Assembly: GCA_017447875.1 (NCBI GenBank)
Contig: JAFSMP010000006.1
Span: 1-46,327 of the forward strand
DNA from: Paludibacteraceae bacterium
GTDB lineage: Bacteria; Bacteroidota; Bacteroidia; Bacteroidales; Paludibacteraceae
Direction: 5' to 3'
Length of the DNA stretch: 46,327 nucleotides
The position numbers and the translations under genes were made by a program. This document shows, piece after piece, positions 10,007 to 22,088 of this stretch. Below the pieces are notes generated by a model. The model saw only the letters and a program-made list of their open reading frames with translations. It ran no database searches and was not told where the DNA came from. The stretch's first letter is position 1. Each line of letters opens with the position of its first letter.

Positions 10007-10500
10007 TTATGCGTAAATCAGATTGTGATTAACAATCTCCATAGCCCGATCCCGGATGTTGTTCATCTGCTGTGCCCACAGCATTTGATCCTGGGCCTTG
10101 AGCTGCTCTGCGACGCCCTCACGGGCGGAAAGCTGTTTTACCAACTCAAGAAACATAGCTTCCGCCTGCTCGTTAAGATCGGCAAATACCCACTGCTCCA
10201 AAAAGCGGAATGAAAGCAGAGCAAACTCAAACGAATGGACCAGAATGAGAGATACGTTGCTCTTTCCTTCCGCATTTTTACGTAGCGCATTTGTCTCTCT
10301 GATCACATCTGGATTATCTGCGGCGTCGTCCATCAGGATATAATACTCGTTTCCGTCGTTCTTAATCTGCCCCACGGCGGCCCTTAACCGGGAATTGTTT
10401 CCCTTGTTTCAACCATGACGTCAGGATAGAGATATCCACATAAGGTGCGCCAAAACAGATAGCCGGAGCCACTGTCTTCACACCATAAGTACTTGCTCAT
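10007..10500 (-). pseudogene. Chimeric, frameshifted relic: hypothetical protein fused to TnpV C terminus
   Basis: From an ATG at 10500 with AAGGAGATC upstream, the minus strand begins MSKYLWCEDSGSGYLFWRTL. The frame shifts near 10397; the continuing frame reads NNSRLRAAVGQIKNDGNEYY and on to HSFEFALLSFRFLEQWVFA. That first part resembles a conserved Firmicutes accessory protein of unknown role. At about codon FADLNEQ it passes in frame into the C-terminal half of TnpV (MFLELVKQLSAREGVAEQLK, ending EIVNHNLIYA). This is a recombination joint. The post-shift part alone could encode 122 residues, but no start site supports it. Confidence 0.7.
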
Positions 10501-10937
10501 CTGATTTGATCTCCTTATAAAACACATTTTGCCGGATTACCGCTTCTTCTCGAATATCCACCGAAGGGATTTCGCATCCGGCACGGGCTTTACCTCGGCA
10601 TATTGCATAATCAAGTGGCAGACTATTATCGGCCAAACAGCACCACCGGGGAGAGATTATCCTATGAATAAGTTGGATTATACTACAAAAACCCGGTGAG
10701 GTAAACACCTTTAAGGGCAGTGACACCCGCTTTTACATATGTCGGTGCCCTTGCCGGCCCATTATGCGGATTTTGAGGCAGGCAAAACCGTCAGATTCCC
10801 CCCAAAAAAACAGGTTGGTGGCTTAGGCCAACACCCATAAGAGAGTTTTGAAACAAAAATGACTTGGTAACTGTCTGACAGGATTGGATAGGTATTTATA
10901 AGTTGAGGCAGAGGAAAAAAGATATCCTCTTGCCTAA
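10501..10937. other. Gene-free stretch with a 27-bp repeat
   Basis: No intact gene is seen. A minus-strand frame ending EIKSDEQVLMV overlaps the relic start and may be the tail of another lost gene. Copy 2 of the 27-base repeat is at 10738-10764, and the tnpV promoter region follows. Confidence 0.5.
10738..10764. repeat. 27-bp direct repeat, copy 2
   Basis: Identical over 27 bases to 4701-4727, 6 kb away in the same orientation; see copy 1. Confidence 0.8.
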
Positions 10938-10970
10938 TTGTTTCAAAATGAATTATGGGAGGTATATTCC

Positions 10971-11351
10971 ATGAAAACAGCGAAGTCCTTTTTTGAGCAG
11001 AACGGCGGCACCTACACAAGAGTTGGCGACTATCTTCTTCCTGACTTGGCGATTGGAGAAGCAGATGCTCAGCCCATCGGCAAATACGGTCGGATGCGGA
11101 AGCGCTATTTGAAAGAGACCTGCTCCGCACTGTATACAAACTTGCTACTATCCGGAAAACTCTGGGAGCACCTGGCCGAGATCGACCGATCCTGTGAAGA
11201 GCGTATGGAAATCATCACTCGGCAGATGAAAGAACGCGAGGGCGTAACCGAGGCACTAAAAGCTAAAAATCAGTGGGAATGGATCCGGCTAATGAACATT
11301 ATACAGTCAAGCGCAGAAGAGATCGTTCTTAACGAGTTGGTTTACATCTAA
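10971..11351 (+). CDS. tnpV: TnpV, transposon-encoded protein (intact)
   Basis: 126 residues, MKTAKSFFEQNGGTYTRVGD to AEEIVLNELVYI. It has the full TnpV layout: the N-terminal FEQ-GGTYT motif, the central IGKYGRMRKRYLKE segment and the C-terminal REGVTEALKAKNQWEWIRLMN block. GGGAGG lies 9 bases before the ATG at 10971. TnpV is a small cargo protein of Tn4451-like elements and its function is unknown. Here it has no transposase beside it, so it is a stranded passenger. Two partial copies exist in this window (10007-10160 and 41211-41360). A hairpin pair downstream ends its transcript. Confidence 0.9.
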   Translation: MKTAKSFFEQNGGTYTRVGDYLLPDLAIGEADAQPIGKYGRMRKRYLKETCSALYTNLLLSGKLWEHLAEIDRSCEERMEIITRQMKEREGVTEALKAKNQWEWIRLMNIIQSSAEEIVLNELVYI

Positions 11352-11360
11352 ACAGAGAAT

Positions 11361-11395
11361 CAACGAACCCGTGGCGATTTGTCACGGGTTCGTTG
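11361..11395. repeat. Perfect 13-base inverted repeat after tnpV
   Basis: CAACGAACCCGTG and CACGGGTTCGTTG pair over a 9-base loop. There is no T run, so it is a stem-loop at the 3' end of tnpV rather than a full terminator, or possibly an element end. Confidence 0.7.
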
Positions 11396-11404
11396 GATGA
11401 AAGC

Positions 11405-11442
11405 AACACTCCCGATCACCTTTGACCGGGAGTGTTTTTCTC
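11405..11442. terminator. Terminator overlapping the 3' end of the QueG-like gene
   Basis: AACACTCCCG and CGGGAGTGTT pair and are followed by TTTTTCTCT on the plus strand, ending tnpV transcription. On the other strand the same bases encode the last residues (KNTPGQR) and stop of the QueG-like gene. Confidence 0.85.
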
Positions 11443-12426
11443 TATGAGCTGAATTTTCCTGTTTCTGACCGCACGCTCCGCACTGTGGCGCAGGACTGCG
11501 CTGTCGCCAGGCATGAGGTGATCAGCGGTTTTGGGAATGATCTGCTGCTCTATAAAAGTATCCGTCTGTTCAAGCAGCTTTTCGGGAACCAGCTTGGCCG
11601 CGATTTCCTCGAGATTAGAAAAAGAGTCTCCTTCGTCCCAGTTGTGCTTTCGATTATACGGGCAGGCGTCCTGGCAGTTGTCACAGCCGCATATCCATTC
11701 CTCGAACATGGATTCTTCCAGAAAGCCCGGGATATTCCCTTTTCCGAAGGTCGTCCAGAAGGACACACAGCGAGAGGGGTCCATGGTATAAGCGTCGCAC
11801 AGCGCGCCCGTTTTACATGCTTTCCTGCACAGCGTGCAGGCTTCGCTGCACGGCCTTATGTTCGTCTGTTGATACAGCGTGCATTCGCAGTCAACAATAT
11901 ACGCAGTCAGGCTGACGAAGGAGCCGCGCTCCGTATAGAAGAAGTTATTTCTTCGGATAATTCCCAGTCCCGCTTTCATAGCGGCGTATCTGAGAGGTAC
12001 GGCATCGACGCCGTCCCAACGGATATGATGCTCCGTCAGCCAGCGTTCAAACTGCACGTGATCGAAACTGTCGGTGTGCCCTTCCTCCGGAGACAGGAAG
12101 AAGGCTTTCGCGTACCTTCCCCGCAGTTCGGGAGGATAGCGGTATTTTCCGTGCTCGGCCGTCAGCACGATAATGGACTTTGCCCAGGGAAATCTGTCTT
12201 TGACCGGCTCATAAATACGCATCCCGCCATAAATTGCGGCACTGGATGGTACTTTTCCCATTCGCTCCTGTAAGCGTTCCTTACTACCCGTCAGATCCTC
12301 CGGCGCAATGATACCGCAGTTGTCATACCCGCACGCCAATGCGGCCTGATAGATTTCATTTGAAAGCCCCGTGATTATCCACCTCCGCAAATACCGAGTC
12401 GACAAGCAGATTATTATGATAGGCAA
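11416..12426 (-). CDS. QueG-like double [4Fe-4S] iron-sulfur protein
   Basis: About 320-336 residues. The C-terminal half has two ferredoxin-type cysteine groups (CSEACTLCRKACKTGALC at about 198-215 and CGCDNCQDACPYNRKHNW at about 250-267), as in epoxyqueuosine reductase (QueG) and its paralogues. The N-terminal half resembles the cobalamin-binding region of that family. QueG proper makes queuosine in tRNA; this shorter, divergent form may instead be a general corrinoid iron-sulfur reductase. The start is odd: GGAGG at 12383-12387 points to ATA or ATC codons, and the only conventional start in frame is a TTG at 12426 upstream of it. The 3' end runs into the tnpV terminator. It is the last gene of the operon that begins at 16843. 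Confidence 0.8.
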   Translation of the reverse strand: MPIIIICLSTRYLRRWIITGLSNEIYQAALACGYDNCGIIAPEDLTGSKERLQERMGKVPSSAAIYGGMRIYEPVKDRFPWAKSIIVLTAEHGKYRYPPELRGRYAKAFFLSPEEGHTDSFDHVQFERWLTEHHIRWDGVDAVPLRYAAMKAGLGIIRRNNFFYTERGSFVSLTAYIVDCECTLYQQTNIRPCSEACTLCRKACKTGALCDAYTMDPSRCVSFWTTFGKGNIPGFLEESMFEEWICGCDNCQDACPYNRKHNWDEGDSFSNLEEIAAKLVPEKLLEQTDTFIEQQIIPKTADHLMPGDSAVLRHSAERAVRNRKIQLIEKNTPGQR

Positions 12427-12467
12427 AGAGACAATGTTCTCTCACGAAAAACAAACTTGCAAAGAAT

Positions 12468-13250
12468 TTAATCGATGTGTATCAGCGGCTCCGTCAGTTC
12501 CGCAACATTGATTTTAGGATCGGGGAAGCGCTCGCGGTTTGCTGTCACCCTGCCGATGTCGATTGCGTGTTGCGGGCAAAACTGCACACAGCCCAGACAG
12601 CCCATACAGTTTGTTCCAAAGACCGGCCTTCCGTCTGCAAGTTGAATGTTCTCTCTCGGACATACCTTTACACAGGTACCGCAGCTGATACATTTGTCGT
12701 TGGCTTGGAACTTGGCAGCTCTTTTCTCGTGAGTTTTCCCCAAGGCCTTGCTCATCAATTCGAACGCAAGCTCTTTAGGTGGGCGCTTCTCGCTGCGTTT
12801 GCCTGCCAGCACCGCCTGAACTACCTCATTCACCTTACAGTCTATGCGATGTTGCGCCATTTTGGGTGTGGTCGGCGGAAGCGTCAATTGATGGGGCATC
12901 AGCCAAATCGCCGTGGAATGGTTGGAGATACCGGTCCAGTAATCCAGGCGCACGATCTCGTCGATTTTTCTCATGCCGCAGCCGAGGTAACCCGCATACT
13001 GTTCTACAGCAAAACGGTAGGCATCGGGCGCGATCTGGATGGCTTTCACATAGTCTTCTACATCCCCCGGAAGGCCTCCAGCCATACAGGAGAAGACGAA
13101 GCCCACTCTTTTTGCTGACCTTGCATCTGTAAGCACCGGAAAGCGGCGCATCATGACGATATCCGTATCTCCCAGAGCCGTTGCAATACTCTTGGCCATG
13201 CTTAGACAGTGGCCGGCACCGGAATAACAGTAGATGATATTTTCACTCAT
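12468..13250 (-). CDS. EFR1-family flavodoxin/ferredoxin fusion
   Basis: 260 residues: an N-terminal flavodoxin-like domain (about 1-170, starting IIYCYSGAGHCLSMAKSIA, an FMN phosphate-binding loop) joined to a 2[4Fe-4S] ferredoxin domain (about 183-235, CISCGTCVKVCP and CMGCLGCVQFCP). EFR1 proteins are cytoplasmic electron carriers of strict anaerobes. GAGGAG precedes the ATG and only 20 bases separate it from the AAA gene, so it belongs to the same transcript. It probably supplies electrons to the QueG-like protein downstream. Confidence 0.92.
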   Translation of the reverse strand: MSENIIYCYSGAGHCLSMAKSIATALGDTDIVMMRRFPVLTDARSAKRVGFVFSCMAGGLPGDVEDYVKAIQIAPDAYRFAVEQYAGYLGCGMRKIDEIVRLDYWTGISNHSTAIWLMPHQLTLPPTTPKMAQHRIDCKVNEVVQAVLAGKRSEKRPPKELAFELMSKALGKTHEKRAAKFQANDKCISCGTCVKVCPRENIQLADGRPVFGTNCMGCLGCVQFCPQHAIDIGRVTANRERFPDPKINVAELTEPLIHID

Positions 13251-13270
13251 GGATAAAATCTCCTCACACT

Positions 13271-14758
13271 CTAAACAAGGTCGTCGTAATTAACGGCCAC
13301 TTGTTCCTTTTTTTGTAATGCTGTAACGGCGCGCTCAATGTCATTACGCCGCTGGTTGAACATCAGTACTTCGCTGTGCTTATAGTAGGCATCGCAGCCA
13401 TACCGGGCAACGAACATGGAAAGCAGCGGATCGGCAGTCAGATCGCTCAGCAGAATGACCATCTCCTGCCCTTCACCCCAGCACAAATCGCAGAAGGAGA
13501 AAATCGCTGCGAGCTTGTCGGATACAGCTTTCGCGCAGGTCGTTGTTTCTGTTCTCAAGCTCTCGAAGGATTCCTTGATCGCCGAAAAATCCTTTCCTGC
13601 ATTCCTTTCCAAAAAGGCGATCGTAAAATTCATAACGACCCGTCTTTGCGGCGACAAACCACCTCTCCGTCTGCTTTTGGAGAGCCTGCTCTTTTCTTCC
13701 TCTATCTGCTTTTGCATCGGCTCTCCGGCTTTTACGGCTTTCAGATAAGGGTGAAGCTCCTCGAGCACCGACCTTCTCTCAAAGAGTGCAGATGCTGCCT
13801 CGCGGATTTTCCCAAGCATAAGCTCAAGAAGACTGAGCCGCTCGTCAAAAGGTGCAGCAGAAGCTCGTTCAATAATTTCCTGGAGCACGGCACCGTTGAG
13901 GATTTCTTGAATTCGATAGTCCGAGTCATATTTTTTGAACAGCATGTAGTAGTCCGCAAAGCTGTCGGCAATAGCGGCATCCTGCAGATACTGGACGATA
14001 AGGTTTCGATTTGCCGCAAGCCCCTTTTTCTCATAGACAAGAAGGATATTACTCAGATCTGTCCACCCGCGGGCGGTGACGAGACCATGCCCATCTTCCC
14101 CGCGGCGGAGTGAATAAAACGCGCTCCTATTGATATCCAGGTAGCTCAAAACAGCAGGGTGCACGCCGACCGACACGGCATATTTGCGCCAGGAAAGATA
14201 ATCCGGGTCTATATCGATCCGCTTCAGCCGGTCCCAGGTTACCGTGTCAAATTCTCTTGCTGAGCGGTTGTATTCCGGGGGATTGCCCGCGGCTACAACA
14301 ACCCAACCGTCCGGGAGAGCATGGCGCCCAAAGGTTTTATACTGCAGAAATTGAAGCATCGTTGGGGTAAGAGTTTCGGATACACAGTTCATCTCATCCA
14401 GAAACAGAATGCCTGCACGGTTGCCGGTGGCCTCCATCTCGTCATAAACGGACGCTATGATTTCCGACATGGTATATTCCGTAACGCTGGTCTCTTCTCC
14501 GCCGTATTCTTTCGTCTTGATGATCGGAAGACCAAGTGTGCTCTGACGGGTGTGATGGGTCATGGAATATGACAGAAGATTGATGTCAAGCTCATTGGCG
14601 ATCTCCGCCATGATGGCGGTCTTACCAATACCCGGCGGTCCCATCAGAAAAACAGGCCGCTGTGATTGAGGCGGAATCAGATGATCTCCGTACTGGTCAC
14701 GCTCAGAGTAAGCAATTACAGTATCTTTGATCTGCACCTTTGCTTCGTCTATCGTCAT
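13271..14758 (-). CDS. MoxR-like AAA+ ATPase (AAA_5)
   Basis: 495 residues. The N-terminal AAA_5 domain has Walker A GPPGIGKT (about 40-47), Walker B ILFLDEMN (about 116-123) and sensor strand VVVAAGNPPEYN (about 152-163). The C-terminal 200 residues are helical and charged (KSRLSKSRRRGG near 360) and have no recognised domain. MoxR ATPases work with VWA-domain partners to remodel or metallate client proteins, as RavA does with ViaA. Its ATG overlaps the stop of the LRR gene (ATGA), so it is translationally coupled to the LRR and VWA genes. Cytoplasmic. Confidence 0.92.
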   Translation of the reverse strand: MTIDEAKVQIKDTVIAYSERDQYGDHLIPPQSQRPVFLMGPPGIGKTAIMAEIANELDINLLSYSMTHHTRQSTLGLPIIKTKEYGGEETSVTEYTMSEIIASVYDEMEATGNRAGILFLDEMNCVSETLTPTMLQFLQYKTFGRHALPDGWVVVAAGNPPEYNRSAREFDTVTWDRLKRIDIDPDYLSWRKYAVSVGVHPAVLSYLDINRSAFYSLRRGEDGHGLVTARGWTDLSNILLVYEKKGLAANRNLIVQYLQDAAIADSFADYYMLFKKYDSDYRIQEILNGAVLQEIIERASAAPFDERLSLLELMLGKIREAASALFERRSVLEELHPYLKAVKAGEPMQKQIEEEKSRLSKSRRRGGLSPQRRVVMNFTIAFLERNAGKDFSAIKESFESLRTETTTCAKAVSDKLAAIFSFCDLCWGEGQEMVILLSDLTADPLLSMFVARYGCDAYYKHSEVLMFNQRRNDIERAVTALQKKEQVAVNYDDLV

Positions 14759-15537
14759 AGCTCAAACTCCGTTTCTCTTGTTGAACCAGCTCTTGTGTTT
14801 CTCAGCAGCAAAGCGGTGAGTTCCGGGCAACCGACCGCATTTGTCCGCTTCACATAGTTCATGGTATGATCCTTGCGCAGCAGATCCATCTTTAAAAGCC
14901 CCTCGAGCGCCCGCGTGTTTCGTTCGGAAATGATGATTTCCATCAGCACTTCCTCGTTCCGGTCGACATACGTTTCCAACCATGGGCGATTGCGTCGGTA
15001 TTCCTCTTCCTTGCAGGAACAGCGCAGCAATGCAAGCAGCAGCTCATCCTCCGGCCCGGGATCATCAGGGAGTCTTCCATAAATACGACCGCGGCGAAGT
15101 CTCCGGCAGCCATCAAAGACATTGTGACCGAGCAGGGTTTCCTCTCCGGGGATTACGACTGACTCAAGTTGAAGACAATCCTTGAAGGCGTTTTCTCCGA
15201 TGGTTTGAACGGCTTTCGGCAGAATGAGGGCTCTGAGCCCGCAGCCGAAAAAGGCGATGCTCCCGATTTCCTGGAGCGTTTCGGGAAACTGAAGTGTCTG
15301 AAGCGACCCGCATCCGACAAACGCGCCGTCTCCGATCGAGATAAGGCCGGCCGGCAGCCAGACTTGCTGGAGCTTCTCACAAGCCATGAAGGTGCACTCC
15401 GGGATTCGGGTGAGCCCATCGGGGAGCTTCACCTCCAGAAGCTCTGCCTGTCCGGCAAACATCTCCGAGTCCATCGTTCCGCCGGGCAGGGGCAAGGATT
15501 CTATTATGCCGTTTGTTTTTGCTATTTCAATCTGCAT
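14755..15537 (-). CDS. Cytoplasmic leucine-rich-repeat protein (BspA/LRR_5 type)
   Basis: 260 residues with about five BspA-like LRR_5 repeats (residues about 30-150, for example LTRIPECTFMACEKLQQVWL and LQEIGSIAFFGCGLRALILP). A helical C-terminal third (about 165-250) looks like a separate binding domain. Unlike secreted BspA proteins it has no signal peptide or cell-wall signal, so it should act in the cytoplasm. Its start overlaps the VWA stop by 11 bases without an independent ribosome site, and its stop overlaps the AAA start. That strict coupling implies a fixed ratio and suggests it is an adaptor or client receptor in a VWA-AAA machine. Confidence 0.88.
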   Translation of the reverse strand: MQIEIAKTNGIIESLPLPGGTMDSEMFAGQAELLEVKLPDGLTRIPECTFMACEKLQQVWLPAGLISIGDGAFVGCGSLQTLQFPETLQEIGSIAFFGCGLRALILPKAVQTIGENAFKDCLQLESVVIPGEETLLGHNVFDGCRRLRRGRIYGRLPDDPGPEDELLLALLRCSCKEEEYRRNRPWLETYVDRNEEVLMEIIISERNTRALEGLLKMDLLRKDHTMNYVKRTNAVGCPELTALLLRNTRAGSTRETEFEL

Positions 15538-16843
15538 GGGGCGCCGCCTTCACAAAACTTCGGATTTCTTCCTGATTCAGAGACATGCTCATTGCCCATG
15601 ACGGCACTTCGATTTCTGTGCCCTCACATTCCCGGAGGACAAAAGCCGTCCTGTATGGCGGAGCCTCATCGGGAAAAGAGCCCTTTCCGTCGGTAAAATA
15701 GATGAGACCCTGCAGATGCGTAAGTTCTCCCCGCTTTTGCAGGGCATCCACATAGTCGAATACCGGGCGGAAATCCGTCCCGCCAAGTCCCTTGACGCTG
15801 CAGCCTGCGAGATACTGCTGGAAATCCTGCCTGCTTCGGATGACGGCATCCTCACGGATCCTGTTATCGCACTGAATAATATGTACTTCAACGGAATCGG
15901 AAAAGTGCTCGTGATCCATCAGGATTTCCCATGTTTTCTGAACGAAAGCCTGGACTGCTTCTCCTTTTACGGAACCCGATGTGTCAATTGCGATGACGAA
16001 TTGCCGGATTCCCTGATTCTCACGATATTCAAGCGGCTCGATAAGCGGAATATCTCCGTAGAGCTTCAGCCCATAGGTATAGTAGTTCTGATCGAATTCC
16101 TCATCCGATAAGCGAAGCTGCTCGGTCAACTGGCAGAAGTTTCTCAAAAATGCCGAGTAGTCTCTGCGCTTTCCGGACATTTGCTTTAATTGCTGCAGCA
16201 TGGCGCCGGATGTATTTCCGGTATTAAGCTCCAGCTCGTTTTTCATTCTTACGGCGACCTGCCGCCAAATCTCCTCGCTATCCTGCGACAGGTTTTTACC
16301 GGTGGCTGACATGTACCAGAGTGAATGGTCGTCGGCAAGAAAATCGCGCTTCAAAACAAGAAAGTCTTCGTTGGACAGTTTCCTGTCGCGCAGCCAGGGA
16401 TACAGCTTTTCCGCGGTGACAACGCCCAGATCCGCCCTGCATTCATTCAGGAACGCTGTCCTTTCTTCAGCCCGCGAATCTCCTGCCACTCTGAGGTGGA
16501 GGCTTTCGATCGTATCTTCAACAGCTATGTCACAGGACAAGTCCCACAAGGCAGGATCGATCCGCGTGCTTACCAGATTGTGGCGGAATATGCAATGGAG
16601 TATCAGATGCAGCAGATGATGGGCGGGCAGAGAAGACCGCATCTGGAAAAGGGACAGAATATGCTGTGGATCGATATAAAGATTCGTCCCGTCTGTCGAA
16701 ATCCGAGCATTCGTCTTTATCACAGGAGGCATACGGGAAATAGCCCTGCTCATAAAACGCAGTTCCAATGTAAGCTGACTCTGCGCCAGTGAAAGGATCT
16801 GCAGCGCCAGTGCTTCCGCCTGCTGTTTGTCCGACTGATCCAT
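15527..16843 (-). CDS. VWA-domain protein with DUF2201-like N terminus and altered metal motif
   Basis: 438 residues from the ATG at 16843 (GGAAAGG upstream; a longer reading would enter the LysR promoter). The N-terminal part matches DUF2201_N putative metallopeptidases, but where the family has HExxH it reads HLILHCIFRH, so the catalytic Glu is Leu and protease activity is unlikely. The C-terminal VWA domain keeps a full metal-ion-dependent adhesion site: DTSGS (about 300), GGTD (about 375) and FTDGKG (about 400). It is the first gene of the operon with LRR, AAA, EFR1 and QueG-like genes, and pairs functionally with the MoxR-like ATPase. Confidence 0.88.
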   Translation of the reverse strand: MDQSDKQQAEALALQILSLAQSQLTLELRFMSRAISRMPPVIKTNARISTDGTNLYIDPQHILSLFQMRSSLPAHHLLHLILHCIFRHNLVSTRIDPALWDLSCDIAVEDTIESLHLRVAGDSRAEERTAFLNECRADLGVVTAEKLYPWLRDRKLSNEDFLVLKRDFLADDHSLWYMSATGKNLSQDSEEIWRQVAVRMKNELELNTGNTSGAMLQQLKQMSGKRRDYSAFLRNFCQLTEQLRLSDEEFDQNYYTYGLKLYGDIPLIEPLEYRENQGIRQFVIAIDTSGSVKGEAVQAFVQKTWEILMDHEHFSDSVEVHIIQCDNRIREDAVIRSRQDFQQYLAGCSVKGLGGTDFRPVFDYVDALQKRGELTHLQGLIYFTDGKGSFPDEAPPYRTAFVLRECEGTEIEVPSWAMSMSLNQEEIRSFVKAAPHAD

Positions 16844-16880
16844 ACAGGACACCCTTTCCGCAATAAATTTGCTGAGAGAC

Positions 16881-16925
16881 TTGCGAAAGATTTTCTGCTG
16901 TGCTACTATTATTCCAAAATGGAAT
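16881..16925 (+). promoter_or_regulatory. LysR promoter and T-N11-A box
   Basis: TTGCGA (16881-16886), 17 bases, TACTAT (16904-16909). The inverted repeat ATTCCA-AAA-TGGAAT (16911-16925) contains a T-N11-A core (16912 to 16924), the LysR-type binding pattern. It lies between the divergent LysR gene and the VWA operon and can serve both. Confidence 0.6.
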
Positions 16926-16958
16926 CCTGGTGAAGCTGCAAATACGGAGGCGGGCAGA

Positions 16959-17855
16959 ATGGATACCACATTCTACAGGGAATTCATCGTACTGGCAGAG
17001 ATACTCAACTTTGGCCGGGCAGCAGACGCACTGAATATGACCCAGTCAAATCTTTCAAAGCATATCCGGGCGATGGAAGCGGAATTGGGAGAACCGCTGT
17101 TTGAACGCCGATATCATTCGGTCGAGCTCAGCGGCTTCGGAAAGCAGTATCTGCCTTATGCAATACGCATTCAGAAAGCGCTTGATGAGGCTGCTGCCGG
17201 TGTAGAGAGCTATCGTAAATCCGCCGAAGAAATCGTCATGTTCGGAGGCTATCATAATATTGAGATATACGGCGTCGAAAAAATGCTTGTCGAATTTATG
17301 AAAGCAAATCCGCCATATAAAACCCGTGTTTACGAAGCCGAGGAAAAAAAGCTGCTTCAGCTTTATCAGGCCGGAAAGATCAATATCATTACCGACTATT
17401 ACATGGAGCCGGACAAGCCGCAGTTCCCCTTTGTTCCAATCGGGAGGGTGCCGTTTGTCGCGATCATACCCCCGGACCACCGGCTTGCCGGCCGCAGCGC
17501 GGTTCACCTTTCAGAACTCGCTGATGAGTCTTTGATGATCCCGAATCGTGATACCAAAATGGGCGAACGTATATTCGAAATCGTAAAAGAGGCGTGTAGC
17601 AAAAGCACACTCGATATTGTTTACGAAGGCTCTTCTGTCTCCTGCCTGTCCCTGGTGAAAAACGGCCGCGGTATCGCGCTGCAGCCGGAAGCGCTGCCGC
17701 TTCATATGCCCGGAACAGTCTATGCCCAGCTCGAGCCTGCACCGTCTTTTATATATGGAGCCACGTACCGCAACAGCGACGATCTGACAAAAGGCGAGCG
17801 AATCCTTATCCGATTCTGTGATAAAGTCCTCCGCAATTCCCAGATAAAAGTATAG
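16959..17855 (+). CDS. LysR-family transcriptional regulator
   Basis: 298 residues from the ATG at 16959 (ACGGAGG 9 bases upstream). An N-terminal winged helix (about 1-60, FGRAADALNMTQSNLSKHIRAMEAELGEPLF) is followed by a type 2 periplasmic-binding-like effector domain (about 90-290). It is divergent from the VWA/LRR/AAA operon and lies next to the redox gene pair at 17915-20692; either could be its target. The T-N11-A palindrome at 16911 favours the VWA operon plus autoregulation. Effector unknown. A terminator follows closely. Confidence 0.92.
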   Translation: MDTTFYREFIVLAEILNFGRAADALNMTQSNLSKHIRAMEAELGEPLFERRYHSVELSGFGKQYLPYAIRIQKALDEAAAGVESYRKSAEEIVMFGGYHNIEIYGVEKMLVEFMKANPPYKTRVYEAEEKKLLQLYQAGKINIITDYYMEPDKPQFPFVPIGRVPFVAIIPPDHRLAGRSAVHLSELADESLMIPNRDTKMGERIFEIVKEACSKSTLDIVYEGSSVSCLSLVKNGRGIALQPEALPLHMPGTVYAQLEPAPSFIYGATYRNSDDLTKGERILIRFCDKVLRNSQIKV

Positions 17856-17865
17856 ATTATAGCCG

Positions 17866-17903
17866 CTCCGGCCGATGCTCATTGAGCACCGGCCGGGCTC
17901 TTT
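17866..17903. terminator. Terminator between LysR and the convergent reductase gene
   Basis: CCGGCCGATGCTC and GAGCACCGGCCGG pair around ATT, with CTCTTTT on the plus strand. Confidence 0.8.
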
Positions 17904-17914
17904 TGCACAGAAGA

Positions 17915-19126
17915 TCAGCCCTTTGCAGGAACATCCAGCGTAAGATCGCTGAGCGCAAAGCTTGCACAGGGGTGAATGTAGCCATAAACCTTGTCCGCCT
18001 CGCGGCGGCCATCGACAATCTCCGGGATGAAGACCTGACCGCTCACAAGCTTGCTGCGGCACCAGCCGCAAATACCGCCGCGGCAGCGGTTCGGGCCGGC
18101 GATCCCCGCACGCTCGAAGGCAGTGATGATGCTTTCGTTGGCCGAGCAGGGAATGTCATATTCACGGGAGCACATTTTCACATGAACATTGAAGACCTTG
18201 TCCTTTGCCTCCATGGGATAGCCGGGAAGAGTCCACGGTTCCTTAATGGAGCCGAAGAGCTCCTTGCGATAGTATTTCTGCTCAATGCCGAGCTTGCTGA
18301 CCTCACCGTCCAGGAAGCGGTACATTGCCTGCGGACCAGCAGCAAAAATACTGTACTTCTCTCCCGATGCGAATTTATCCGCATATTTTCGGATGAGATC
18401 CGCTGTAATGAATCCGTGCTCATACCCTTCGACGTTCTCATCGGAAAGAACATTCAGAAGGCGAACCTTGTCGGTGCGTCTTTCAATCTCATCGAATTCC
18501 TTTTTGAACATGATATCATCACGCGTTCTGCTGCCGTAAATGATGGTAAGGTCAAAATCCTCATCACCGTCAGCAATGGCGTTTGCCATAGCAAATGCAG
18601 TGGTTATTCCGCTTCCGCCTATGCAGGCGATCACGTGCTTTGCATCACGGAAAGGTTCATAATACCCAGTCCCCTGAGGACCGGAAGTGGTGACCTCCAT
18701 GCCGGGCTTCCAGTTCTCCTGAATGTAACCGGACAGGTAACCGTCATGAACCAGCTTCACGGTGAGGGTCATCTTTCCTTCAAGTGTCAGTGCCGGCCCG
18801 CAGGAGATCGTGACAGGGCGGGCGATCATTTTTCCATCGACCACTTGGCGGATGACCACAAACTGGCCAGCGCGGAAGAATGCGGGATTCTTTCCGTCCT
18901 TGCGGCGAAGCACATAGGTTTTCGCTTCAGACGCACGGTCGATCACATCCTCAATGACGAAGACCTGTTCCTCCGGGTGACGCTCCTGCGCTTTCCGGTT
19001 GATCTCAGGCAGTCCGCCAAGTGGAGCAGAGGATGCGTTATCAATATGGTTTTCACGTTCTTTATATTTGTTCTTGAAATAGAGCATCTCGGGAATGCCG
19101 CCGAGGCCTTTTATTTTTTCAGCCAT
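17915..19126 (-). CDS. Flavin reductase with C-terminal plant-type [2Fe-2S] ferredoxin domain
   Basis: 403 residues: an FAD-binding barrel (about 60-150, ARPVTISCGPA), an NAD(P)-binding domain (about 160-290, CIGGSGITTAFAMANA and YGSRTRDDIMFKKEF) and a C-terminal [2Fe-2S] domain (about 320-400) with C-x4-C-x2-C (CRGGICGWC) and the distal HPCASF cysteine. This is the layout of phthalate-dioxygenase-reductase-like proteins. In an anaerobe it more likely passes electrons from NAD(P)H to the partner flavoprotein. The ATG directly abuts the upstream stop, with GAGGAGGAAAAG as ribosome site, so the two form a coupled pair. Physiological substrate unknown. Confidence 0.9.
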   Translation of the reverse strand: MAEKIKGLGGIPEMLYFKNKYKERENHIDNASSAPLGGLPEINRKAQERHPEEQVFVIEDVIDRASEAKTYVLRRKDGKNPAFFRAGQFVVIRQVVDGKMIARPVTISCGPALTLEGKMTLTVKLVHDGYLSGYIQENWKPGMEVTTSGPQGTGYYEPFRDAKHVIACIGGSGITTAFAMANAIADGDEDFDLTIIYGSRTRDDIMFKKEFDEIERRTDKVRLLNVLSDENVEGYEHGFITADLIRKYADKFASGEKYSIFAAGPQAMYRFLDGEVSKLGIEQKYYRKELFGSIKEPWTLPGYPMEAKDKVFNVHVKMCSREYDIPCSANESIITAFERAGIAGPNRCRGGICGWCRSKLVSGQVFIPEIVDGRREADKVYGYIHPCASFALSDLTLDVPAKG

Positions 19127-20692
19127 TTACTTTTCCTCCTCTTCAGCCATTTCCTGAAGCACAAGCTGTGCCATGTCGTTTCCGTTCAGATGTGTCTGGC
19201 TGTAGCCGTCTCCGCGGGCACCGGCCGCGCCGACAGTCTTGAATCCGCGGATGGGCTGGTCCTTCTTCATTGCGATCATACGGGAGATCATCGTGTCCCA
19301 ATCGTTCAGCTCATAGCCGTAGATCACGCCATTCGGGGTGTTGAGGTAGTTTGCGAAGGTCCACGGCGTGGCGATCTCGATCTCTTCGATGCTGTCGCGG
19401 ATCTTGATCCCGGTCTGTTTTTCAAATGCGTCCAGAACCATGCCAAAGGCTTCTTCTTTTTTCTTCGTATACTCTCTGTCATTCACAGCACCCCAGTAAG
19501 GCTCGGTCACAGGGATCGTAAACGTCATGGTCGTAGTCCCTTCGGGAGACGCTTTGGGGTCGGCAAGGTTGTAGCAGACAAAGGTGGCGTTGGTGTTTCC
19601 TTCCCATGTTCCCGCGAGCTCCTTACATTTTGCGCTGTCATAGGCGGGGGGAACGAACATGGAATAGTCATGAATGCCAAGCTCCTCCGGGCTCTTGTTC
19701 AGTCCAAGGTAAACGTTGACAAAGCTGACCGCAGGCTTGGAGGCGTTAACGCGCTTGACCTCGCGCATGGGGAGATCGATCTTCTTGTCCAGCAGCTGTG
19801 TATAGGCAAAATAGGGATTGAGATTTGCGATTACGTAGTTTGTCTCCACGAAACCCTCAGTGGTATCCACGCCGATGATCCGTCCTTCGTCATTGGCAAC
19901 TACGCGGTTTGCCTTGGTATTCAGCCAGACCTCACCGCCCAGCTCTTCAAAGCGCTTCACAAATTCCGCCGTGATTCCGAAGGATTTGTAGCGGCAGGTG
20001 GATGGCTTCAGATCACAGTACATCAGGAACATCCATGCGTACATGACAAAGCTCATGTGATCGAGGTCGTCGGAAAGATAGAGCCAGTAGGGGCTCATAA
20101 TATCGATGGCGTCTTCCGGCACGCCGATCTCACGCATGACCGTCGTGAACGGCTTCTCTGCGACCTTGAGGAAGTTGGGGAAATGCGTCATGAAATAAAG
20201 GTCGTCCACCTTGACGAAATCGTCCTTTGTGTACTTGTCAAGATGCTCGTCAAAGTATTCCGAGGCCTCGCGGCATTCTTGCGCGAGGGCAAAGAACTTG
20301 CGGATGGAGGCTTCCGAACCGGGAACTGCCTCTTCGATGGCGTGGATGCAGTTTTCGATCCCTGTCGGCATCGTCATGTCGATGCGCTTACCGCTCCGGG
20401 TCACGCTTACGCAGCGGTACATCTCCGGGGCGGGAAGCCACTGGACCTTCAGCCCGTATTTCTCATTCAGCAGCTTGCCCGCAGGACCCCAGTTGCCCGG
20501 CTCGCCAATCCCGCAATACTCATGCAGTGACAGATCGAACTCGAAACGTCCGCGTACGATACTGGTCCCGCATCCTCCCGGAACATTGTGCTTCTCGATC
20601 AGAAGCGTTTTCTTGCCCGCAACGGCCAGAGACAGTGCGGCAGACAGGCCGCCTGTGCCTGCGCCAATCACGACGGCATCATATTTTTTCAC
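19127..20692 (-). CDS. CrtI/phytoene-desaturase-like FAD-dependent oxidoreductase
   Basis: 521 residues from a GTG at 20692, chosen for AAAGGAGGAG 8 bases upstream; upstream extensions lack a site. The N-terminal dinucleotide fold is clear (DAVVIGAGTGGLSAALSLAVAGKKTLLIEK, about 5-34), with the C-terminal FAD motif VGAAGARGDG (about 490) typical of COG1233 (phytoene desaturase, retinol saturase). No other carotenoid genes are near, so the substrate is probably another unsaturated or amino-oxidisable small molecule. It is coupled to the 2Fe-2S flavin reductase, its likely electron donor or acceptor. A long antisense frame over this gene is not believed real. Confidence 0.88.
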   Translation of the reverse strand: MKKYDAVVIGAGTGGLSAALSLAVAGKKTLLIEKHNVPGGCGTSIVRGRFEFDLSLHEYCGIGEPGNWGPAGKLLNEKYGLKVQWLPAPEMYRCVSVTRSGKRIDMTMPTGIENCIHAIEEAVPGSEASIRKFFALAQECREASEYFDEHLDKYTKDDFVKVDDLYFMTHFPNFLKVAEKPFTTVMREIGVPEDAIDIMSPYWLYLSDDLDHMSFVMYAWMFLMYCDLKPSTCRYKSFGITAEFVKRFEELGGEVWLNTKANRVVANDEGRIIGVDTTEGFVETNYVIANLNPYFAYTQLLDKKIDLPMREVKRVNASKPAVSFVNVYLGLNKSPEELGIHDYSMFVPPAYDSAKCKELAGTWEGNTNATFVCYNLADPKASPEGTTTMTFTIPVTEPYWGAVNDREYTKKKEEAFGMVLDAFEKQTGIKIRDSIEEIEIATPWTFANYLNTPNGVIYGYELNDWDTMISRMIAMKKDQPIRGFKTVGAAGARGDGYSQTHLNGNDMAQLVLQEMAEEEEK

Positions 20693-21143
20693 ACAAACTC
20701 CTCCTTTTTGAAAAATATTTTGTGTAAAATTACAATGATATTTTATTTTCTTGTTAAGAAATTCGCAATTCAAATATCAGGAGTTATGATTCCAAACAGG
20801 AATGATACTGCTCGGAGAATTGCGTTCCGCCGGATTGCGGTTCTTTAATGAGATGTTCGGATTTTGAGCCGACTGCAAAAGCCCTGCTCCGGTGGCAATG
20901 AAAACTCGCAAAGACTATAAAACTGCAAATATTGTGCCGTCTTTCATGCAATTCAAAAAGAGCGAGAAGGTGCCTTGATTCAGGCCCGTTCTCGCTCACT
21001 TTTGCCACATCCGCTGTCAAAGAGAGTCTATAACTGATGTATTCTGTGCCGAATGAAGATAATCCATACCGTTTATTCATGATAGGTAACCCGAACGCCT
21101 CAAAAATGAATAATCGGAGTGAGACTACCCCGCTGCTCACCAC
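20693..21143. other. Intergenic region, 450 bases, with a leftward terminator
   Basis: An AT-rich part (20693-20790) holds the promoter of the FAD oxidoreductase. The rest contains a terminator at 20964-21005. A 119-codon open frame on the minus strand crosses that terminator and looks non-coding. Confidence 0.6.
20964..21005 (-). terminator. Terminator of the carbohydrate operon
   Basis: GAGCGAGAA and TTCTCGCTC pair over a loop, with AAAAA on the plus strand just left of the stem giving a T tail on the minus strand. On the plus strand ACTTTT follows, so it may work both ways. It lies downstream of the esterase at 21144. Confidence 0.8.
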
Positions 21144-22088
21144 TCAACGAGCCTCGAGCATGGATTCGATTACCTGATAACGTTTTTTCAAAATGCGCTG
21201 AACAAGAGGACTCTCAAGATCTGCGTCAAAACCGTGATAGCTTTGCGGAATCAAATTGACCTCAACCTTGTTGCCTGCTTGCCGGAGTTTGTCCGCGTAC
21301 GCCAGCCCCTCATCTCTCAGCACATCCATCTCCTGCGGTTCAACATAGCTTGGGGGCATGCCGCAGAGGTCATCAAAAGCCATGGGGACAGCATATTTCC
21401 GCATGCCGCAATCCCCTTGAAAGAAATAGGCTTCCCACATCTTCCGGTTGGAATAGGCTGTCCAGGCCGCATGCGCATAGTCACGGACAGAGGGATATTT
21501 CTCCGAATGATCGTCTGTAACCGGATAGACGAGGATCAAACCCTTGACAGATGGACCTTTCCTGTCTTTTACCATATGGGTTACACCTGCTGCAAGCGCA
21601 CCGCCAGCACTGTCGCCATAGACAAGGAGCTGCTCCCTGTCAATCTTAAGAAGCTCCGCATTATGATATACATACTGCAGCATACTGTAGCAATCTTCCA
21701 AGATGGTCTGGCAGGAATTGTCCGGTGCTACGCGATAATCGGGCATTAGTACTCGAATCCCGCAGTTTTTCGCATATTGCTGCGCGATCATCAGCATCGC
21801 CGGCTGCACCGGAAAGATAAATCCACCGCCGTGATAATAAATCATTGCCGGAAGTGCATGATCGATCCCTTCTGGTTCCAAAACAAAATACGGAATCGAC
21901 GCCCCATCGTAGGATGGATAACTTTTCCGATATAAAACCAAGCCGGGAAGCGGCGTAATCCGCTCATTTTCTGCACGGAAGAACGAAAAGAGCTCGGCGT
22001 TTTGTTTCCGTACCTCTGGTGCAAGAAAATCCACATCACCGATATAAAAAGGATCCTTCAGTTCCGGACTGTAGTTGTATTCTGCCAT
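21144..22088 (-). CDS. HSL-type (GDXG) alpha/beta esterase
   Basis: 314 residues with the hormone-sensitive-lipase signatures: oxyanion motif HGGG (86-89), nucleophile GDSAGG (Ser160), and late Asp (EMDVLRDEG) and His (SYHGFD) triad members. No signal peptide, so it is cytoplasmic. It is the last gene of the operon starting at 30512, 18 bases after the preceding hydrolase gene. In this context it probably removes acyl groups from imported glycosides. Exact substrate unknown. Confidence 0.92.
   Translation of the reverse strand: MAEYNYSPELKDPFYIGDVDFLAPEVRKQNAELFSFFRAENERITPLPGLVLYRKSYPSYDGASIPYFVLEPEGIDHALPAMIYYHGGGFIFPVQPAMLMIAQQYAKNCGIRVLMPDYRVAPDNSCQTILEDCYSMLQYVYHNAELLKIDREQLLVYGDSAGGALAAGVTHMVKDRKGPSVKGLILVYPVTDDHSEKYPSVRDYAHAAWTAYSNRKMWEAYFFQGDCGMRKYAVPMAFDDLCGMPPSYVEPQEMDVLRDEGLAYADKLRQAGNKVEVNLIPQSYHGFDADLESPLVQRILKKRYQVIESMLEAR

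Follow-up and report, generated by a model that had tools for sequence, protein, structure and literature searches.

The ATPase/LRR/VWA trio encoded on the minus strand of the window, a stretch of 46,327 nucleotides from contig JAFSMP010000006.1 (assembly GCA_017447875.1, labelled Paludibacteraceae bacterium), is a conserved, recurrent unit comprising a MoxR-type AAA_5 ATPase, a BspA-type leucine-rich repeat (LRR) protein and a VWA protein (Table 1). We propose, at what we judge to be even odds, that these proteins form an AAA+ remodelling machine with exchangeable adaptors, and that its likely target in the window's branch is an adjacent pair of redox enzymes, a flavin adenine dinucleotide (FAD)-dependent oxidoreductase and a 2Fe-2S reductase. 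Coordinates and family matches bear out the gene run described in the first-pass annotation, which reads VWA, LRR, AAA_5, EFR1 and QueG-like along the minus strand, with the LRR start overlapping the VWA end by 11 bases (15527..15537) and the LRR and AAA_5 genes joined by an ATGA (14755..14758). The EFR1 gene begins 20 nt past the AAA gene, and all five genes would presumably share a single transcript; promoter-like matches are present between the EFR1 and QueG-like genes, in a scan that yields chance matches too.

The recurrence of the trio is documented in several sets of sequences. Seven human-faecal contigs carry ATPase relatives at 40–46%, some of these relatives being truncated at a contig end; the contig records bear the label 'Bacteriophage sp.', and their gene content looks bacterial. 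An alignment of the faecal ATPases, scanned against genome contigs, returned at least 592 relatives, the best 80 of which were kept and are, according to record labels, mostly from gut and rumen Clostridia, with five from the Eggerthellales or near kin. A scan of viral contigs found no relatives, and plasmid matches, among those listed, are distant (22–27%). In the 79 loci other than the window's own, a VWA relative is present in 73 and an LRR/adapter protein lies within 4 kb in 73; where at least 4 kb is available on both sides of the ATPase gene, these figures are 44/45 and 42/45. The LRR-like gene lies between the VWA and ATPase genes in 23 of 87 loci, and upstream, downstream or on the opposite strand elsewhere, and the 4-nt overlap of the LRR/adapter gene with the AAA gene is seen again in eight other loci (L029, L032, L033, L037, L050, L052, L061, L083). 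The association also holds in a sample of 291 genomes drawn regardless of neighbours from the class of G920, the genome of the Ruminococcus flavefaciens locus L091 and a known AAA carrier. The ATPase is found in 16 of these genomes (G920 included), with one match each. Adapter matches at E ≤ 0.01 occur in 17 genomes, and 11 of these carry the ATPase as well (Fisher p = 1.9e-12; 2.2e-11 when G920 is excluded); with the threshold set to E ≤ 1e-6, all eight genomes with an adapter carry the ATPase (p = 1.1e-11; 2.0e-10 without G920). Fifteen further loci, taken from the ATPase genomes other than G920, all contain the VWA gene, which is split in L172 and truncated in L175, and an LRR/adapter gene is present within the stretch in ten and 5 to 6 kb past the VWA gene in two more. 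LRR_5 proteins are themselves scarce in most of these genomes: of the 15 AAA genomes scanned (G1215 was left out), 14 have only 1–10 matches and, among the matches listed, 12 of the 15 have a match no more than 10 kb away from the AAA gene.

The redox proteins downstream of the trio do not share in this conservation. The EFR1 protein belongs to its family (NF038196, 150 bits against a cut-off of 75), and the QueG-like protein scores 88.2 bits with TIGR00276, far under the cut-off of 200, and is hence not QueG proper. Relatives of either protein (phmmer, E ≤ 1e-10) were found in none of the 79 related genome loci, 64 of which cover 2 kb or more on the downstream side of the AAA gene, and in none of the seven faecal contigs or the 15 further loci. 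EFR1 and the QueG-like protein were therefore rejected as parts of the system, and their proposed role as clients or partners falls with them, so that of the five-gene composition put forward in the first-pass annotation, only the ATPase/LRR/VWA unit stands. Judged by the refuting condition that this annotation had itself set, the LRR gene beside the AAA/VWA pair passes and the redox genes fail. A local coincidence of unrelated genes accounts well for the latter (0/79 and 0/15 loci); for the trio it is refuted by recurrence in diverse Clostridia and in Eggerthellales, and as an explanation of the system it is scarcely credible.

A different pair of redox enzymes, one left out of the system proposed in the first-pass annotation, does recur with the trio. 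Clustering of neighbouring genes places a reductase like the window's 403-aa protein in 11 loci and a CrtI-like FAD oxidoreductase like its 522-aa protein in ten, the window's own included, and this pair alone recurs in at least ten loci among the clustered neighbours. The window copy (17915..20695) lies upstream of the VWA gene, the two being separated by the gene for a LysR-type regulator, which might possibly control the redox pair or the VWA gene. In a tree of the ATPases from 80 of the 87 loci (genome contigs only), one branch sets 14 rows, the window among them, apart from the other 66 (support 96/89, with the bootstrap not settled), and one or both members of the pair are present in 12 of these 14 loci, 11 by clustering and L032 as the twelfth. 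Two of these records are partial, the pair being represented by no more than an FAD enzyme fragment at the contig end in L078 and, directly after the ATPase gene, in L032; in the remaining two loci, L031 and L050, no redox pair was seen on what are short contigs. The genes form same-strand runs with short gaps, in the order pair-VWA-LRR-ATPase in L029, L083 and L099, and in the order VWA-LRR-ATPase-pair in L033, L037, L052, L061 and L067. Two copies of the pair, one on each side of the trio, are found in L052 and L061. The FAD enzyme of the window is about equally similar to its homologues inside the branch (40–41%) and outside it (29–39%).

The third component is modular. In the window it consists of BspA-type LRRs (residues ~2–152), a helical adapter domain (162–249) and a disordered C-terminal tail ending in EFEL; the LRR_5 repeats and, in the predicted model, the BspA-type fold were confirmed, and the structure comparison barely covered the C-terminal helical domain. 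In line with the first-pass annotation, the protein shows no evident signal peptide, and a simple rule based on hydrophobicity assigns a hydrophobic N-terminus to 1 of 99 family adapter open reading frames (ORFs) as against 68 of 449 other ORFs. Pfam matches among 96 of the 99 adapter ORFs (two longer than 1100 aa and one fragment were left out) comprise 17 families, with LRR_5 in 79, DUF6273 in seven, Ank_2 in six and DUF4132 in five, and hybrids occur. The LRR, ankyrin, DUF6273 and DUF4132 modules share a predicted helical, ankyrin-like adapter domain, which in L025 stands nearly on its own (118 aa); the adapter alignment covers 69 of the 93 listed stretches. Where the adapter is C-terminal, 33 of 60 proteins end in an F-x-L tail, compared with 5 of 449 control ORFs. 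In L086, three tandem adapter paralogues, the first of them matching DUF6273, precede the VWA gene (L086:2391-5381).

Several LRR genes accompany a single AAA/VWA pair in L053, L066, L070 and L081, an arrangement that would also be expected if the LRR and other repeat proteins were themselves the clients, folded or assembled by the MoxR-VWA pair of their own operon. Against this reading, the common element is the small adapter, which is also joined to non-LRR modules and once stands almost alone, and in R. flavefaciens the LRR_5 matches number 117 and, among those listed, mostly lie away from the locus; we regard this reading as improbable.

The same variability makes a conflict or defence system of the ternary MoxR-vWA type the main rival, one in which the LRR and other modules would sense invaders and the ATPase/VWA pair would determine at what level a response is triggered. 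Ternary MoxR-vWA conflict systems are likewise built around a variable third component, up to five LRR/adapter genes lie within 4 kb of a single AAA gene, and in some locus pairs the third component diverges faster than its partners (L054/L076: AAA 75%, VWA 64%, adapter 18%). A SIR2-like gene sits between the LRR and ATPase genes of L076 (L076:6090-6995; Pfam SIR2_2, 1.4e-7), the PADLOC candidate PDC-S48 matches 3 of the 96 adapter proteins, and the window ATPase weakly matches IetA (1.5e-5). Furthermore, the part of the literature available to us describes DUF6273 as a C-lectin-like target of hypermutation by diversity-generating retroelements in phages. On the other side, nothing that could act as an effector follows the VWA-like domain (residues 283–421 of 438) in the window protein, the only VWA protein scanned for one, some relatives' being longer, and no neighbour other than the redox pair recurs in at least ten loci, in a clustering that included no scan aimed at defence genes. 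PADLOC returned nothing strong for the five window proteins or ten chosen relatives, and no match at all for the window VWA and LRR proteins or those relatives. Among the third-component types of Kaur (2020), only VMAP-M1 was matched, weakly (5.8e-4) and in 1 of 96 adapter proteins, the Pfam coverage of each type being unchecked. In the closest locus pairs, lastly, the third component has not diverged more than its partners (L029/L083: 97, 98, 97 and 96%). Taken as a whole, a defence role appears unlikely, if less so than the other rivals.

The two constant members carry the hallmark of a MoxR-VWA couple, namely an AAA+ ATPase with Walker A and B motifs adjoining a VWA protein with a metal ion-dependent adhesion site (MIDAS). 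Both Walker motifs are kept in the ATPase, and the window protein scores 35.2 bits with AAA_5 (cut-off 22) and 26.4 bits with bpMoxR, slightly below the cut-off of 27. The window VWA protein exceeds the Pfam cut-offs for both DUF2201 and DUF2201_N and joins a helical, metallopeptidase-like N-terminal domain with HxxxHxxxxH and DxxxE motifs, lacking the catalytic Glu, to a C-terminal VWA domain with an intact MIDAS (DTSGS, T356, D385); NorD is among the fold matches of its predicted model. HExxH is the canonical catalytic motif of metallopeptidases. Across 64 of the 71 VWA proteins (the window and 70 others) that could be used for the alignment, the MIDAS residues and H79, H83, D105 and E109 are invariant and H88 is kept in 62, yet the HExxH glutamate (position 80) is missing in all 64, and the N-terminal domain is therefore likely a pseudo-peptidase, which may still hold a metal. 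Three of ten distant VWA rows, which amount to two proteins, have HExxH (HEIMH in L017; HEVLH in L018, at the same place as L015), and no HxxxH was seen in the other seven.

This conservation invites the metallation idea of the first-pass annotation, applied to other clients, in which a metal bound by the degenerate metallopeptidase-like domain, or a cofactor, would be inserted by the AAA ring into a client that the LRR protein selects. The retention of the putative metal ligands in the absence of the catalytic Glu, the HExxH of the two distant VWA proteins and the insertion of iron by NorQD, as given in the available part of its description, all speak for such an insertase. The enzymes of the redox pair, however, should by their families require FAD and 2Fe-2S rather than a mononuclear metal, no redox pair was found near the ATPase in 66 of the 80 tree rows, and the seven distant VWA rows lack HxxxH altogether, all of which makes an insertase distinctly unlikely.

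The exchangeable-adaptor reading follows the pattern of published couples. In published MoxR-VWA couples, the VWA domain captures a client peptide and the ATPase releases it in altered form (Kaur 2020, in the part of the text available to us), and the VWA domain of ViaA is described as binding the flavoprotein FrdA in the RavA-ViaA couple. By analogy, the modules here most plausibly act as exchangeable adaptors, and the redox pair is the likely client in the window's branch. A cytoplasmic MoxR-type AAA+ ring and its VWA co-chaperone would remodel a bound protein at the expense of ATP, onto which pair the third protein would dock through its helical adapter domain and acidic F-x-L tail, the latter possibly sitting in the MIDAS of the VWA domain. 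The LRR module, or in relatives the ankyrin, DUF6273 or DUF4132 module, would then pick the target, an adaptor role that is compatible with the suggestion in the first-pass annotation that the LRR protein selects clients. In the window's branch, the adjacent FAD enzyme and 2Fe-2S reductase would be activated, matured or switched, in much the way that RavA-ViaA acts on FrdA.

A number of observations weigh against this reading. With regard to the third component, 5 of the 16 AAA genomes in the sample have no adapter match at E ≤ 0.01, and in 3 of the 15 further loci the stretch contains no third component, two of these loci lying close to a contig end. A loose form of the tail motif is absent from 21 of the 60 C-terminal adapters, and 23 of the 103 LRR ORFs in the loci have no detected adapter. 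The adapter profile also matches apparent ankyrin arrays in G1155, a genome without the AAA gene, so that part of its reach may be ankyrin similarity. With regard to the client, the pair was found in none of the 66 loci outside the branch, of which just 41 offer 5 kb or more of upstream and 3.5 kb or more of downstream sequence, and its distribution requires four changes on the ATPase tree, not one. Within the 291-genome sample, the redox pair occurs without the AAA gene in 11 genomes, the reductase adjoining the FAD enzyme at all 13 places, and in none of the 16 AAA genomes (E ≤ 1e-40), so the pair is not dependent on the machine.

The most likely origin of the window is a Clostridia genome, its contig having been mis-binned with Bacteroidales. 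Its genome bin (G000) carries a 16S gene (C25:31884-32752) that we judge by eye, from sequence signatures, to be of Bacteroidales type. The contigs of the bin form two tetranucleotide groups, and the window contig (C20) correlates at 0.83–0.93 with C2 and C5 and at 0.66–0.71 with C1, C10 and C25, as well as at 0.83–0.89 with the Clostridia locus L029 and at only 0.54–0.58 with L031. Furthermore, locus L028, from an 'Oscillospiraceae bacterium' metagenome-assembled genome of water buffalo abomasum, matches the window at 99.98% over 10823..21758 and diverges beyond 10823. The bin is thus mixed despite a listed contamination of 0.23%, and kinship searches around it, in which the window's own proteins were the sole full-length matches, most likely covered the wrong phylum and do not bear on the operon. 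The break at ~10823 is either an assembly join or a strain difference; two similar-looking short ORFs, presumably TnpV-like, lie where the sequences part (10007-10375, minus strand; 10938-11351, plus strand). A repeat of ~70 bases that is widespread in G000 and G021, two genomes of one genus, resembles the strong Bacteroidota promoter.

Table 1. Genes of the trio and its surroundings in the window.
Feature	Position	Strand	Remarks
VWA protein (DUF2201)	15527..16843	minus	ATG start, 438 aa; DUF2201 1.6e-13, DUF2201_N 1.3e-6
Third component, BspA-type LRR_5 protein	14755..15537	minus	260 aa; LRR_5 2.2e-27
AAA_5 (MoxR-type) ATPase	13271..14758	minus	495 aa; Walker A GPPGIGKT and Walker B LFLDE intact
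EFR1 flavodoxin-ferredoxin	12468..13250	minus	downstream neighbour, found in window only
QueG-like double 4Fe-4S protein	11416..12369, start possibly up to 12426	minus	downstream neighbour, found in window only
LysR-type regulator	16953..17855	plus	divergent; between redox pair and VWA gene
FAD/NAD/2Fe-2S reductase	17915..19126	minus	403 aa; recurrent partner in window's branch
CrtI-like FAD-dependent oxidoreductase	19127..20695	minus	522 aa; recurrent partner in window's branch

The system belongs to the MoxR-VWA kind, and a search of titles and the beginnings of abstracts in the open literature returned no description of an LRR or adapter-bearing third component to such a couple. Like the E. 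coli RavA-ViaA couple, it joins a MoxR-type AAA+ ATPase to a VWA partner, which in that system bridges to the flavoprotein FrdA; unlike it, the trio includes an LRR/adapter protein, of which the available description of RavA-ViaA makes no mention, and that description presents the N-terminal domain of ViaA as helical and of a novel structure. NorQ-NorD, with which we group CbbQ-CbbO for this comparison, likewise pairs an AAA+ ring with a VWA protein to remodel a metalloenzyme, as far as its available description goes; to our knowledge, it is a two-part system with a fixed client and no repeat-protein third component. As in the DUF2201 VWA proteins, both Pfam domains are present, and the trio differs in the loss of the HExxH glutamate, which the distant L017 and L018 proteins keep. 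A further parallel is found in the ternary MoxR-vWA systems (VMAP, iSTAND, FtsH, beta-propeller and TERNS3), which, in the available part of Kaur (2020), also combine MoxR and vWA with a variable third component joined to small shared non-catalytic domains. Here, however, that component is an LRR, ankyrin, DUF6273 or DUF4132 protein with a common adapter, the window VWA protein is without an effector, the P-loop reads GPPGIGKT as against the GXXXTAKS frequent in the beta-propeller set, and the trio occurs in gut anaerobes, whereas the ternary systems are said to favour multicellular bacteria (Kaur 2020).

Substrate choice by MoxR ATPases is poorly understood. If the exchangeable-adaptor reading is correct, a separate, swappable recognition protein with a shared adapter would make that choice testable by module swap, and would assign a function to part of the cytoplasmic BspA-type LRR proteins found in gut bacteria. 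More tentatively still, the trio may be a general AAA+ platform of gut Clostridia and Eggerthellales, in which a constant ATPase/VWA pair serves changing adapter-fused LRR, ankyrin, C-lectin-like and DUF4132 proteins, with one branch dedicated to a flavin/2Fe-2S pair, and in which target choice would evolve by module swap, much as F-box proteins provide it for SCF ligases.

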